9,963 bases of DNA from a bacterium (GTDB lineage Bacteria; Blakebacterota; Blakebacteria; Blakebacterales; Blakebacteraceae), in the NCBI GenBank assembly GCA_025774615.1, contig JALGVQ010000166.1, positions 1-9,963 of the forward strand, in the 5' to 3' direction. This document shows positions 2,852 to 8,979 of the stretch, one piece after another (the first letter of the stretch is position 1; every line of letters starts with the position of its first letter). The translations under genes were made by a program, and so were the position numbers. The notes beneath the pieces were generated by a model, which saw only the letters and a program-made list of their open reading frames with translations, ran no database searches and was not told the DNA's origin.

Positions 2852-3445
2852 ATGGAAGACAAATTGAGAAGGACCACGATCTATTTCGATCCAGCGGTCC
2901 ATCAGCACCTTCGTATGAGAGCTGCTGAAACGGGCCGATCGGTCTCGGACCTGGTAAATGAGATAATCGAATCGGCTCTCGAGGTCGAATCTGCCGACGG
3001 ACGATATTCCCTCCCCGCCATCCCCGACGGGACCGTCCATGAACCAGGTGTCGAGTATACTGGATTGACTGATCGGATCGAACGATTGGAACGCAGGATC
3101 GGGATCGTGGATGATGGTCCCGAGACCGCTGGTGAACCTTCCACTCTCCTCACTCTGACTGATGTGAAGGAACGTCTCGGCAGCAACAGTCGAAGATTGA
3201 AGGAACTGGGAGTCAGGTCACTATCTGTGTTCGGGTCCCTGGCCAAACAGAGATTCAAGTCGGACAGCGATATCGACTTCCTGGTCGAATTCGAATACCA
3301 GGTCGGTCTCTTTCGCCTCATCGAAGTTGAACAGTACCTCACCCTCCTTCTTACAAGCGAAATTGACCTCCTGACACCCGACTCACTGAAGCCGAAGATG
3401 AAGAACAAGATCCTGAATGAGGCTATCCGTGTCTTCCCAATCTGA
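2852..3445 (+). CDS. mntA: RHH-MNT fusion: MntA-type antitoxin nucleotidyltransferase with DNA-binding domain
   Basis: Probable antitoxin of a type VII (MntA/HepT) module. Residues 5-43 look like a ribbon-helix-helix domain: the beta-strand RRTTIYFDP, a helix VHQHLRMRAAETG, the turn RSVSDLVNEI and a second helix. A linker rich in G, P, D and E (about 45-98) follows. Residues 99-197 form a minimal nucleotidyltransferase: GS at 128-129, ten residues, then D140-I-D142 (the GSX10DXD signature), and a likely third acidic residue, Asp172, in EIDLL. In known MntA proteins this fold transfers AMP from ATP to the tyrosine of the partner HEPN toxin and so inactivates it. The known MntA proteins I can recall are mostly the nucleotidyltransferase domain alone; the added RHH domain suggests the protein also represses its own promoter through the repeats just upstream. 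The ATG has no ribosome-binding site, which fits leaderless translation. The 3' end overlaps the toxin gene. Confidence 0.88.
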   Translation: MEDKLRRTTIYFDPAVHQHLRMRAAETGRSVSDLVNEIIESALEVESADGRYSLPAIPDGTVHEPGVEYTGLTDRIERLERRIGIVDDGPETAGEPSTLLTLTDVKERLGSNSRRLKELGVRSLSVFGSLAKQRFKSDSDIDFLVEFEYQVGLFRLIEVEQYLTLLLTSEIDLLTPDSLKPKMKNKILNEAIRVFPI

Positions 3446-3776
3446 AAAAGAATACCTTGAGGATCTGATCGAGGCCTGCGAGTGGATTCTTCATTATACG
3501 GATGACATGACATTCGAAGACTTCTCTGAGGATAGAAGGACAATCGACGCGGTCCTGAGGAACATTATCGTGGTCGGAGAAGCTGTGAACAAATTGCCGA
3601 CAGCTTTCACTGAGGAGAATCCCCGGATCCCCTGGCACAGCATGCGCGGTCTCCGAAACTTCGTCGTACATGAATATCGCAGCATCGATCTCCCGAGACT
3701 CTGGGAAACCGTCCAGAATGATATCCCTTCGATCCTGCCTGAATTGAAAAGGCTCTGCACCGATCCAACACTCTGA
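3429..3776 (+). CDS. hepT: HepT-type HEPN ribonuclease toxin (DUF86)
   Basis: Small all-helical HEPN protein of about 115 aa, the usual size for DUF86/HepT. It shows the HEPN core and the toxin signature RX4HXY as RNFVVHEY: Arg76, His81 and Tyr83, counted from the GTG start. Arg and His form the RNase site across a dimer. The Tyr is the residue AMPylated by MntA in known type VII systems. Other family-like stretches are AVLRNIIVVGEAV (41-53) and IPWHSMRGLRN (67-77). I prefer the GTG at 3429: GAGG stands 6 nt before it, and the resulting MSSQSEKEYLEDLIEAC matches the usual family N-terminus. An ATG at 3417 would add four residues but has no clear ribosome-binding site. It overlaps the antitoxin gene by 17 nt, which implies coupled translation. 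The catalytic residues are intact, so the toxin is probably functional. Confidence 0.9.
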   Translation: MSSQSEKEYLEDLIEACEWILHYTDDMTFEDFSEDRRTIDAVLRNIIVVGEAVNKLPTAFTEENPRIPWHSMRGLRNFVVHEYRSIDLPRLWETVQNDIPSILPELKRLCTDPTL

Positions 3777-3844: not shown

Positions 3845-3850
3845 AGGAGG
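3845..3850 (+). promoter_or_regulatory. Strong ribosome-binding site deciding the esterase start
   Basis: A perfect AGGAGG stands 8 nt before the ATG at 3859. It fixes the true start of the esterase at this ATG and not at the TTG at 3853 or the GTG at 3924, and shows that the signal-peptide segment belongs to the gene. Confidence 0.85.
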
Positions 3851-3858
3851 GTTTGATA

Positions 3859-5624
3859 ATGCACCTACGTGTCACAATCGGGATTGTGTTACCGGTCCTC
3901 ATTGTTGTGCTGGCCGGCTGTTCGTGCTGGCCGGCTGTTCATTTACCACCTCTGACTCCGAGGGCGGCGGGATCGAGTTCGCGGTCACCTTCAGCGAGAA
4001 GGCCAGCGTCGAGACTCTCGACGGCCGGATCATCCTTCTGCTTTCGACCGACAACGCATCCGAACCGCGTTTCCAGACCGGTGGCGGCGCCAGCGCGATC
4101 GGCGTGTTCGGCCTGGATGTGGATGGCCTTGCTCCCGGTGCGGAAGCAGTCGTCGATGGCTCGGTCTTCGGATATCCCATCGAGAGTCTTGACGAACTGC
4201 CGAGGGGTGTCTACTACGTGCAGGCCGTGTTCCACAAGTATGAGACCTTCCATCTCTCGACCGGCAATACGGTGAAGCTCCCGATGGATCAGGGCGAGGG
4301 GCAGCACTGGAACCGCTCTCCCGGAAACCTCTACAGCACCCCCCGGAGGATCTCCATCGACCCCACCCGGCCGGTGCGGTATGAGATCGAGATGGAGGAG
4401 GTCATCCCCCCCATCCCCGAACCGGCGGATACGGAGTACATCAAACACATCCGTATCCAGAGCGACCTGCTCACCGAGTTCTGGGGCCGGCCGATGTATC
4501 TCGGAGCGCACGTGTTGATCCCTGAAGGGTTCGACGATCATCCTGAAGCACGCTATCCCCTCATGGTCTTTCACGGGCACTACCCTTCCGACTTCGGAGG
4601 ATTCCGGACCGAACCGCCCGATCCCGATCTTGAGCCCGATTACAGCAGCCGGTTCGGGATCTCGGGATACAATCAGATTCAACAGCAGGAGGCATACGAC
4701 TTCTACCAGCAGTGGATCGCACCCGATTCACCACGCGTCCTGATCATCGAGATCCAGCACCAGAACCCCTATTACGACGATTCGTACGCCGTGAACTCGG
4801 CCAACCTGGGGCCATACGGGGACGCCATCACCTACGAGCTGATCCCCTTTATCGAGGAACAGTTCAGGGGTATCGGCGAAGGATGGGCGAGATTCCTCTA
4901 CGGCGGTTCCACCGGCGGCTGGGAAGCCCTCGCGGTACAGGTCTTCTATCCCGATGAATACAACGGCTGCTTCGCGGCCTGTCCCGATCCGATCGATTTC
5001 CGCCAGTACAGCCTGGTGAACATCTACGAGGATGAGAACGCCTACTACGAGGGAGGATCTCTCCATCAGGTTGAGCGACCTGCCCGCCGGGACTGGCTCG
5101 GCAATGTGAGTACCACCGTACGGGACGACAATCATCTCGAACTGGCGCTGGGCAGCAACAGCAGGTCGGGCGATCAGTGGGATATCTGGCAGGCTGTCTA
5201 CTCCCCCATGGGCACAGACGGATATCCTGAACCGATCTGGGACAAGTACACAGGCGAGATCGATCACGAGGTGGCCGATTACTGGCGGGAGAATTTCGAT
5301 CTGCGCCATATCCTCGAGCGGGACTGGGCGACACTCGGGCCGAAGCTCGCGGGAAAGATCCATATCTACTGCGGGGACATGGACAACTATTACCTCAACA
5401 ATGCCGTATACCTGATGGAAGAGTTCCTTGAGGGTACGACCGATCCATACTACGGTGGCGAGGTCGATTACGGGGATCGGGCCGAACACTGCTGGAACGG
5501 TGACCAGGAGAATCCCAACGCCATCTCGCGGCTCCGTTACAACACGATGTACCTGCCCATGATCCTGGAGCGGATCGCTGACAGTGCGCCCCCGGGCGCC
5601 GATCTGAAGAGCTGGTGGTATTGA
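3859..5624 (+). CDS. Secreted lipoprotein esterase (alpha/beta hydrolase), frameshifted at the signal peptide
   Basis: Putative envelope-anchored esterase of the esterase D/enterochelin-esterase-like (PF00756) type. From the ATG at 3859 the frame encodes a short hydrophobic signal ending in the lipobox LAGC (18-21). It is then thrown out of frame by a 17-bp tandem duplication (3907-3940) and would stop at 4273-4275. The rest of the protein lies in the frame that runs from 3924 to 5624. Removing one 17-bp copy gives a clean 582-aa lipoprotein: lipidated Cys21, Ser at +2 (consistent with outer-membrane sorting), an N-terminal beta-rich region (about 25-175), then a hydrolase domain. In restored numbering the likely triad is Ser345 in GGSTGG, Asp501 or Asp503 in GDMD, and His538 in AEHCW. 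A GTG at 3924 could restart translation, but it lacks a ribosome-binding site and gives no signal peptide. One base separates the stop from the next ATPase gene. The substrate is unknown. Confidence 0.85.
3907..3940 (+). repeat. Exact 17-bp tandem duplication disrupting the esterase frame
   Basis: GTGCTGGCCGGCTGTTC occurs twice, back to back (3907-3923 and 3924-3940). The unit encodes VLAGCS, the end of the signal peptide and the lipobox. As 17 is not a multiple of three, the extra copy shifts the frame. With a single copy the signal peptide joins perfectly to the mature lipoprotein, so the duplication is probably recent. Confidence 0.97.
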
Positions 5625-5625
5625 C

Positions 5626-6558
5626 ATGATCAAGGTAGAGGACCTCTACAAGAGTTACGGTGAGACTGTCGCGGTCGACGGGATCTCCTTCACCGCCGAG
5701 CCTGGCCGGATATTCGGGCTGCTCGGGCCGAACGGTGCCGGGAAGACGACGTCGATCGACTGCATCTCCGGCGTGCACAAACCGACTTCGGGACGAATCC
5801 TCGTCGGTGATCTCGACATCGTCCGCAATGCCCGTCAGGCGAAGGCGCAGATGGGAGTAGTACCGCAGGAGGTCGCTCTGTATGAGGAAGTCTCTGCGCG
5901 TGAGAACCTCCATTTCTGGGGTGGCGCCTGTGGCCTGAGGGGGGCCGATCTGAAAAGCAGGGCCGGTGAGGTCCTGGAGCTGACCGGACTCATCGACCGG
6001 GCCGATGATGCGGTGAAGAAGTTCAGCGGCGGCATGAAACGACGTCTCAATTTCGGCTGCGGCATCATGCACCGCCCGCCTGTCCTCCTGCTCGATGAAC
6101 CGTCTGTCGGGATCGATCCCCAGAGCCGGGTACGCCTGCTCGACCTCGTACGCGAACAGGCCTCAGCCGGAGTGACCGTTCTCTACACGACCCACTATAT
6201 GGAGGAGGCGGAGTCACTCTGCGACGAGCTCGCCATCATCGACCACGGTACCATCCTTGCCGATGGCAGCCTCGATGAATTGCGCTCCCTGGTCGGGGAG
6301 AAGGACATGGTCAAGCTGACAGGCACCTTCGATCCCGCGGAAGTGAGCAGAGCTCTCGGCGACAACCTGCCCGAGATCGAGATCATGGAGAGCGACGAGG
6401 CAGCCCTTCTGGTATCGATGTCCGATGCCGCAGGCAACCTCGCCGCCCTGCTCGGTGTACTCCAGGAGAATGGCGTGGTCCTGCGTGAGACCTCGGTCCG
6501 GCGGCCGAGCCTTGAGACCCTCTTCATCAAGATGACCGGCAAGGAACTGCGTGAGTAA
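5626..6558 (+). CDS. ABC-2-type exporter ATPase (310 aa)
   Basis: Motor subunit of the right-hand exporter. It is a complete NatA/DrrA-like ATPase with Walker A GPNGAGKTT (34-42), a canonical Q-loop Gln81 in VVPQE (unlike the two left-hand ATPases, which have Glu there), the signature FSGGMKRR (133-140), Walker B VLLLDEP (153-159), the D-loop GIDP (162-165) and the H-loop His190 in YTTHYMEEAE. The C-terminal region (about 220-310) is the usual regulatory extension, ending in RRPSLETLFIKMTGKELRE. The ATG begins 1 nt after the esterase stop without a clear ribosome-binding site of its own, which suggests translational coupling. The 3' end overlaps the first permease gene by 8 nt. It almost certainly powers the two permeases that follow. 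Confidence 0.95.
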   Translation: MIKVEDLYKSYGETVAVDGISFTAEPGRIFGLLGPNGAGKTTSIDCISGVHKPTSGRILVGDLDIVRNARQAKAQMGVVPQEVALYEEVSARENLHFWGGACGLRGADLKSRAGEVLELTGLIDRADDAVKKFSGGMKRRLNFGCGIMHRPPVLLLDEPSVGIDPQSRVRLLDLVREQASAGVTVLYTTHYMEEAESLCDELAIIDHGTILADGSLDELRSLVGEKDMVKLTGTFDPAEVSRALGDNLPEIEIMESDEAALLVSMSDAAGNLAALLGVLQENGVVLRETSVRRPSLETLFIKMTGKELRE

Positions 6559-7834
6559 TCTGCGGTACACACTTGTCGCGATCCGGAAGGATATCGGACG
6601 ATTCCTCAAAGATCCCGTCGGGCTCCTGCTCTTGATCTGTATGCCGGCCATGGTCGGTACACTCGTCAATCTGGCGTTCGGGGGGAGTGACGATACACCC
6701 ACAGCCCGACTCATGATCGCCGATGAGGACGATTCTCTTCTGAGTGGTCTCCTGATCGGCGCGTTCGGCCAGGGAGAGATGGCCGAACTCATCAACACAG
6801 AGAGCGTCACGCGAGCAGAGGGTGAGCGGGAAGTCTACAAGGGACGCGCTACTGCCCTGCTCGTCGTCCCTGAAGGATTCGGGGATTCATTCCTCAACGG
6901 TGAACCTGACACTCTGAGCCTCCTGACGAATCCTGCCCAGACGATCCTGCCGGGTATCATCAAGGAGACATTGGAGATCATGACGACCGGGGGAGGACTC
7001 CTGAGGGAGTTCCTCGGGCCACAGATCGACCTGATCAACTCGGAGTCAGGAAGCGTGTCTGATTCCTTTTCAGACCAGACGATCTCCAGCATGGCGGTCG
7101 ACATAAATAACCTCATGGAGGGCGCCTCGACCTGGCTCTTCCCACCGGCCATCAAATTCGAGAATATCTCGGCCGACACGACCTCGGCGACCGATGCAGA
7201 GGCCAGTATGGTGACCGACGAGGAGAAGACCCTGCTCTGGTACTTCTTCCCCAGCCTGCTGACCCTGCTGCTGATCTTCGCCGGGATGATGCTCTCCTCC
7301 GATATCTGGAAGGAGCGACAGGCCGGTACCATCCGCCGTGGACTCTCCGTACCCTTCCCGGTGCGGTGGATGATCCTTGGGAAATTACTCGCCGGGACCC
7401 TGGTGGTCCTGACGGTCCTTCTGCTTGCTGCCGCCTTCGGCCGGTTCGTACTCAGATTGCCACACCAGTCATGGCTGGCAGGAGCACTCTTCCTCTCGCT
7501 GACCGGAGCCACGTTGATCTCGGGCATGACGGCACTACAGGTCCTCTTCAAAACCGAACGGGGAGCGAGCATTGTCGTCATGTTCTTCGTGATGGTGATG
7601 ATGTTCGGCGGCGGCTCGTTCTTCCCGCTCGAAGCGATGCCTGACTTCATGCAGAAAGTCGCCATGTACCTCCCGAACGGGTGGGCCCTGATCCACTATA
7701 AAGCGGTCATCGAGGGCAACTCCGCCCCGGGTGACCTCCTTGTACCGGTCATCATCCTGATCTCCATCTTCATCCTGAGCTGGACGTTCTGCAGCTGGCA
7801 GATCGCCCGGCGATGGGGAAGCGGGTCGGCATGA
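6551..7834 (+). CDS. ABC-2-type permease with large extracytoplasmic domain (427 aa)
   Basis: First of two membrane subunits of the exporter. The layout is typical of the larger ABC-2 permeases: one N-terminal membrane segment (about 22-44), a large extracytoplasmic domain (about 46-225), then five more segments (about 228-248, 274-298, 308-331, 339-361 and 396-416). The loop after the second segment carries DIWKERQAGTIRRGLSVPF (251-269), matching the conserved ERxxGTxRR coupling motif of the family. FFPLEAMPDFMQKVAMYLPNGWAL (357-380) is the usual re-entrant and coupling region before the last segment. The start is GTG at 6551, with AAGGA 5 nt upstream inside the ATPase gene. It overlaps the ATPase by 8 nt. 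The next permease has the same layout but low sequence similarity, so the pair probably forms a heterodimer. Confidence 0.93.
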   Translation: MSNLRYTLVAIRKDIGRFLKDPVGLLLLICMPAMVGTLVNLAFGGSDDTPTARLMIADEDDSLLSGLLIGAFGQGEMAELINTESVTRAEGEREVYKGRATALLVVPEGFGDSFLNGEPDTLSLLTNPAQTILPGIIKETLEIMTTGGGLLREFLGPQIDLINSESGSVSDSFSDQTISSMAVDINNLMEGASTWLFPPAIKFENISADTTSATDAEASMVTDEEKTLLWYFFPSLLTLLLIFAGMMLSSDIWKERQAGTIRRGLSVPFPVRWMILGKLLAGTLVVLTVLLLAAAFGRFVLRLPHQSWLAGALFLSLTGATLISGMTALQVLFKTERGASIVVMFFVMVMMFGGGSFFPLEAMPDFMQKVAMYLPNGWALIHYKAVIEGNSAPGDLLVPVIILISIFILSWTFCSWQIARRWGSGSA

Positions 7835-8979
7835 CGCGGGGACGCTGGAATAGGATCGCCTTCCTGACATGGAAGGATTTCTGGTACCTGATCCGGGAAC
7901 CTGAGACCCTCTTCTGGATGTTCTTCATGCCCTTCGTCTTCTTCTTCTTCATCGGATCTATAGCCGGTGGCGGCGGTGGAGGATCAGGAGTGGAGAATCT
8001 GGCGTCGTGGGCACCTGATGAGGGAGTCCTTGTTCCGGCTATCGAAGAGCGACTAACGGACCTGGGTTATACCGTCACGCGTATCGACACTCTCGAGCAT
8101 ATGGAGCGGTATAATCGTCAGCTCCGTTTCCCGGCGGCCTTCTCGGACAGTGTACTGGCCGGCATCCAGGCTACCGTGACCTTCCGCCGCACCGATGAGA
8201 GCATCCTTGGCGGGCAGTATGATGACATCCGGATCCAGCGGGCCATCTATGAGACGCTGGCTGATATCGTACTGATCGACCGCGATGATCTCGGATTCAC
8301 CATCGAGTCGTTCGAGACCCGACGTCAACAGCCGGTCCTGATAGGACTGGAGGTCGAACAGGCCGGCACTCACCATGAACCACCCGACGGATTCCAGCAG
8401 GCAGTACCAGGGACGATGGTGACATTCGTGCTGATCATCCTGCTCACCGGCGGAGCCGTTCTGCTCATCACAGAGCGACAGGGGGGACATCTCAGACGCC
8501 TGGCGACTGCTCCGGTCGACAAGATCGATGTCTTCGCTGCGAAGGGGCTGTCCCGATTGGGGATGGGACTGGTCCAGATCGGCGTCGGATTGTCAGCAGG
8601 TGCCTTCGTGTTCAAGGTCGACTGGGGACCGCATATCGGCGCCCTGCTCGTCATTCTGGTCCTGTGGGGGGCGGTCGCCGCGGCAATGGGTGTCATCGCT
8701 GCCAGCCTGGCGAAAACAGTCAACCAGGCGATCGGGATCGGCATGCTGCTCGCGAACGGCATGGCCGCCCTCAGCGGATGCTGGTGGCCGATCGAGGTGA
8801 CCCCTGCCTGGATGCAGAAGGTGGCATGGCTCATTCCCTCCGGCTGGGTGATGGACGCCATCCACCGTCTCACCTCTTTCGGTGATCCTGCTTCAGCCAT
8901 CATTCCCCACGTCATCCTGCTGACGGCAGCGACTGTCATCCTGACGCTCATCGGCAGAAAGGTGTTCCGATTCGACTGA
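7831..8979 (+). CDS. ABC-2-type permease, second subunit (382 aa)
   Basis: Second membrane subunit, the likely heterodimer partner of the permease at 6551-7834. Segments are at about 26-45, then after an extracytoplasmic domain (about 50-190) at 193-213, 237-260, 267-293, 298-317 and 357-376. The coupling motif reads ERQGGHLRRLATAPV (215-229), and WWPIEVTPAWMQKVAWLIPSGW parallels the same region of its partner. I chose the ATG at 7831 because it forms a 4-nt ATGA overlap with the previous stop, has G/A-rich sequence upstream, and gives the family-like start MTRGRWNRIAFLTWKDF. An ATG at 7813 would add six residues but has no visible ribosome-binding site. A glycine run (about 45-51) just after the first segment is a flexible linker. 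This is the last gene of the operon; no terminator follows before the convergent gene 5 bp away. Confidence 0.92.
   Translation: MTRGRWNRIAFLTWKDFWYLIREPETLFWMFFMPFVFFFFIGSIAGGGGGGSGVENLASWAPDEGVLVPAIEERLTDLGYTVTRIDTLEHMERYNRQLRFPAAFSDSVLAGIQATVTFRRTDESILGGQYDDIRIQRAIYETLADIVLIDRDDLGFTIESFETRRQQPVLIGLEVEQAGTHHEPPDGFQQAVPGTMVTFVLIILLTGGAVLLITERQGGHLRRLATAPVDKIDVFAAKGLSRLGMGLVQIGVGLSAGAFVFKVDWGPHIGALLVILVLWGAVAAAMGVIAASLAKTVNQAIGIGMLLANGMAALSGCWWPIEVTPAWMQKVAWLIPSGWVMDAIHRLTSFGDPASAIIPHVILLTAATVILTLIGRKVFRFD

Follow-up and report, generated by a model that had tools for sequence, protein, structure and literature searches.

The locus and its reading frames

The window, the whole stretch of DNA analyzed here, is 9,963 nucleotides long and corresponds to contig 236 of a draft metagenome-assembled genome (MAG) composed of 324 contigs and 82% complete. 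It contains an esterase gene followed by an ABC exporter (Table 1). Within the esterase gene a 17-bp unit, GTGCTGGCCGGCTGTTC, is present twice, with identical copies placed head to tail. The base preceding copy 1 and the base following copy 2 each differ, so that the match run is exactly 17. Among exact tandem repeats of period 3-59 in the window, only this duplication and a TTC run at 7937 were detected. By a 4^-p reckoning, exact tandem duplications of at least 13 bp are expected by chance about 0.02 times in 869 kb, and the 17-bp duplication therefore needs an event or an error.

As assembled, the product from ATG 3859 starts MHLRVTIGIVLPVLIVVLAGCSCWPAVH and has 138 amino acids plus the stop, and the open frame of the mature protein, stop-free to its end, lies in another frame. 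The signal peptide and lipobox are joined in frame to the mature protein in the one-copy reading only, whose product is a 582-aa lipoprotein precursor containing LAGC. These results confirm a previous sequence-only reading of the locus, which had described the exact duplication, a perfect AGGAGG at 8 nt spacing, a one-copy LAGC lipoprotein of 582 aa and a two-copy frame ending after about 139 codons.

Table 1. Features of the esterase locus, in coordinates of the window
Feature	Position	Strand	Basis
AGGAGG Shine-Dalgarno, 8 nt upstream of ATG 3859	3845-3850	+	direct reading
ATG 3859 frame as assembled: signal peptide and LAGC lipobox, then frameshifted to stop	3859-4275	+	translation
Copy 1 of the 17-bp unit	3907-3923	+	repeat scan
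Copy 2 of the 17-bp unit	3924-3940	+	repeat scan
Mature esterase frame (PF00756), intact, 566 aa from GTG 3924, other frame than the signal peptide	3924-5624	+	translation, profile match; catalysis predicted only
ABC exporter, ATPase and two ABC-2 type permeases, same operon layout	5626-8979	+	also follows the orthologue of the same-genus genome

Two other genes of the window (2852-3445 and 3417-3776) encode an MNT-like nucleotidyltransferase with an N-terminal ribbon-helix-helix region and an overlapping HepT-like protein; they resemble a type VII toxin-antitoxin pair with an apparent fused DNA-binding domain. A search of the window against Rfam gave no match, nor did the flank of the duplication site match viral contigs.

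Conservation of the esterase

The esterase scores 25.2 bits against PF00756 (gathering cut-off, 22 bits), with a match that spans residues 297-383 only. It shares with this putative esterase family, besides a score above the curated cut-off, a GGSTGG nucleophile elbow and invariant Asp and His residues; it differs in the short extent of the match, in that no NCBIfam family was found for it, and in that its sole PDB match is weak (8z91, E 2e-4). The columns of the presumed triad (Ser329, Asp485 or Asp487, His522, numbered from GTG 3924) are invariant in a 10-sequence alignment, in agreement with the intact triad proposed in the sequence-only reading. A scan for relatives identified 557 candidates, and the best 80 of the 557 have 64-91% identity and come from Aminicenantes, Bacteroidota, Marinimicrobia and other phyla. 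The family (window 3924-5624; L002-L081) is thus uncharacterised and unusually conserved, at about 65-75% identity across several phyla.

In nearly all loci that include the 5' end, the reading frame of the conserved protein extends upstream to a start codon, and a signal peptide is usually, and a lipobox often, present there; the start codons were chosen mechanically and a few are doubtful. None of these loci has the 17-bp duplication. The orthologue in the same-genus genome is 91% identical over 435 shared codons, with dN of 0.055, dS of 0.87 and dN/dS of 0.063, and the rest of the esterase gene is under strong purifying selection. The earlier observation that nothing downstream has decayed therefore stands, as the frame is both open and constrained. 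At the duplication site itself there is one assembled allele, and the same-genus copy stops at a contig end short of it. The contigs with the closest orthologues (G001:C447 and G003:C176) both start within the gene, at residues 132 and 117 respectively, and the 5' end is therefore absent in both close relatives. The low dN/dS, the in-frame 5' ends of the relatives and the conserved exporter indicate that the esterase has lost its function only very recently, if it has lost it at all, and the one-copy reading is supported as the ancestral gene.

Exact duplications in the genome and the signature of its assembly

Exact two-copy tandem duplications of at least 13 bp, excluding low-complexity units and longer arrays, were counted in 97 pieces of the genome that contains the window (869 kb without N), 21 pieces of the same-genus genome (150 kb) and two genomes of the same family (120 kb). 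The controls were 79 loci taken from other genomes (546 kb in total) together with 200 kb of E. coli MG1655. We found 10 duplications in the 869 kb of the window's own genome and four in the 150 kb of the same-genus genome, none in the same-family genomes and two in the 746 kb of control sequence. The excess in the two genomes of the genus over the control (binomial p 0.012) is clear but not overwhelming, and statistically modest. The control set is biased, as its 79 loci from other genomes all lie around one conserved gene and are lower in G+C.

The 14 exact units of the two genomes are 13-72 bp long and have no mismatches between copies; short ones outnumber long ones, and no exact duplication of 73-500 bp was found in the scanned sequence. 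Only three of the 14 are multiples of three, and in 13 the match run exceeds the unit by just 0-3 bases, that is, with almost no microhomology. Slippage at microhomology was rejected as a cause on the latter ground; at the esterase site, TGTT is found both ahead of the unit and close to its end, but the two lie 16 bases apart and therefore do not yield 17. Palindromes or hairpins at the junctions were likewise rejected, as they are not enriched. Two-copy duplications with 1-3 mismatches are also present in these genomes. Among diverged tandem repeats of the own genome, 17 of 20 are in frame, although the scan was loose and many periods are short and possibly due to chance. This bias fits selection, and the exact duplications show no trace of selection on frame.

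In the own genome, exact duplications split genes for a ROK kinase, a PadR regulator, a sugar-binding protein, an AAA ATPase and a zinc-finger (putative anti-sigma) protein. The ROK kinase gene (L180:4972 and 5362, contig C276) has two, one of 54 bp in frame and one of 37 bp out of frame, 390 bp apart, and its orthologue in the same-genus genome has neither. Conversely, the same-genus genome carries a 22-bp exact duplication within its gene for pyruvate, phosphate dikinase, which is thereby split (L194:375, contig C10 of G001); the own genome has one copy there. For all four duplications with alignable orthologues, the other genome of the genus has a single copy; in the sister genome the L181 and L117 duplications had no DNA match, and L177 had a partial match only, short of the site. 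A further exact duplication of 65 bp (L149:19604-19736, own contig C117) includes the start of a putative lipoprotein together with its signal peptide (MQRRTGYILIPVLLALSACGR), and the second copy of the duplication retains its own start codon.

Regarding the assembly, 167 contig ends were compared: four pairs share an overlap of exactly 114 bp, and one pair has a 23-bp overlap that had not been merged. The 114-bp overlaps are characteristic of de Bruijn assembly with a largest k near 115, and the 17-bp duplication is exact, blunt and shorter than this k-mer. By its record name, the sister MAG is a 'scaffold' from the Meg22 series, and papers on the Meg22 data give IDBA-UD as the assembler; from the kinship and the end overlaps we infer that the own genome was assembled in the same way. 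For IDBA-UD and CLC, joins have been described in which overlapping flanking sequences leave a duplicate behind (Chen et al. 2020, PMC7111523). A single N gap was encountered in the 869 kb, and its flanks neither overlap nor carry duplicates.

Origin of the second copy

The most probable explanation is that the 17-bp duplication is an assembly artefact. Two ends overlapping by less than the assembler's k-mer would have been joined with the overlap unmerged, so that 17 bases were written twice, presumably at this very point. Such a join would leave an exact, blunt and frame-blind tandem duplication shorter than k, as at 3907-3940, and the living cell would carry a one-copy gene for an ordinary 582-aa secreted esterase lipoprotein heading an ABC-exporter operon. 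This reading fits most of the evidence, namely the excess of exact duplications, their frame-blindness, the unrelated genes that they split, the one-copy orthologues, the unmerged overlap and the constrained esterase. The errors described by Chen et al. 2020 (PMC7111523) are similar in the duplicates at overlapping flanks, the contig ends sharing about one k-mer and the broken MAG genes; however, that case keeps Ns between the duplicates, whereas the copies in the window abut directly. Further points count against an artefact, among them the solitary N gap in 869 kb and the statistically modest excess. The 34 bp lie within one k-mer of about 115, and a pure graph contig would therefore need read support, so that the artefact needs a join here; in addition, the simple overlap model does not predict more short than long duplications.

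Alternatively, the duplication could be real and very recent, a loss-of-function frameshift that is common or fixed in the population sampled and can revert by losing one copy, without being an evolved switch, a reading that we consider possible but somewhat unlikely. Translation would then end at 4275, yielding a short, false lipoprotein, and the exporter downstream may be expressed less because 1.3 kb ahead of it goes untranslated. The two-copy repeats with mismatches argue that real duplications occur in these genomes, and the excess is present in two genomes of the genus; however, all exact copies are mismatch-free with no sign of selection on frame, strongly conserved genes are among those broken, and the junctions lack palindrome enrichment. 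Blunt end joining by Ku was rejected as a source, Ku not having been found in four genomes of the family, which are incomplete. A precedent comes from pneumococcal capsule genes, in which spontaneous reversible sequence duplications are described by Waite et al. 2001, 2003, as cited in passages of PMC4022640 and PMC4243769. According to these passages, a short intragenic tandem duplication abolishes the product and exact reversion is possible, as could be the case here; reversion is reported there in living cultures, whereas the window offers a single assembled sequence of an uncultured organism and a genome-wide, frame-blind class. It is improbable that the lineage is truly prone to blunt, microhomology-free tandem duplications of 13-72 bp without Ku, with many genes, the window lipoprotein included, flickering between broken and intact in the population.

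The sequence-only reading had proposed a recent event, a reversible phase switch or an artefact; a very recent or artefactual origin is upheld, with an artefact as the best fit, but the switch is not. An evolved switch, in which the esterase lipoprotein would be turned off by gain of a 17-bp copy and on again by its loss, appears very improbable, even though a duplication within the lipobox codons shifts the frame cleanly between on and off and identical copies can be lost via slippage or recombination. No relative examined has a repeat at the site, there are two copies only and no flanking homology, and similar duplications occur genome-wide in unrelated genes with no common envelope connection, pyruvate, phosphate dikinase in the sister genome among them. 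It is scarcely credible that production of the protein continues from a fixed two-copy gene, whether by starting internally, by -1 frameshifting or by a 17-nt ribosome hop between the copies. The downstream frame does open at GTG 3924, and every codon of copy 1 has a twin 17 nt further on as a possible landing site; however, this GTG has no Shine-Dalgarno and its product no signal peptide, and a comparable layout occurs in no relative. A programmed frameshift was rejected, as no X-XXY-YYZ slippery heptamer was found in frame from 3859 to 4275. Switch, internal start, frameshift and ribosome hop are all without positive support.

Real duplications would make the lineage a natural mutator with respect to small tandem duplications. 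Should they be artefacts, MAGs assembled in this way may contain exact duplications at about a dozen per megabase, many of which disrupt the reading frame, and conserved genes would be misread as pseudogenes and as candidates for phase variation. Such artefacts would be flagged by scanning for exact duplications that abut and are shorter than k.
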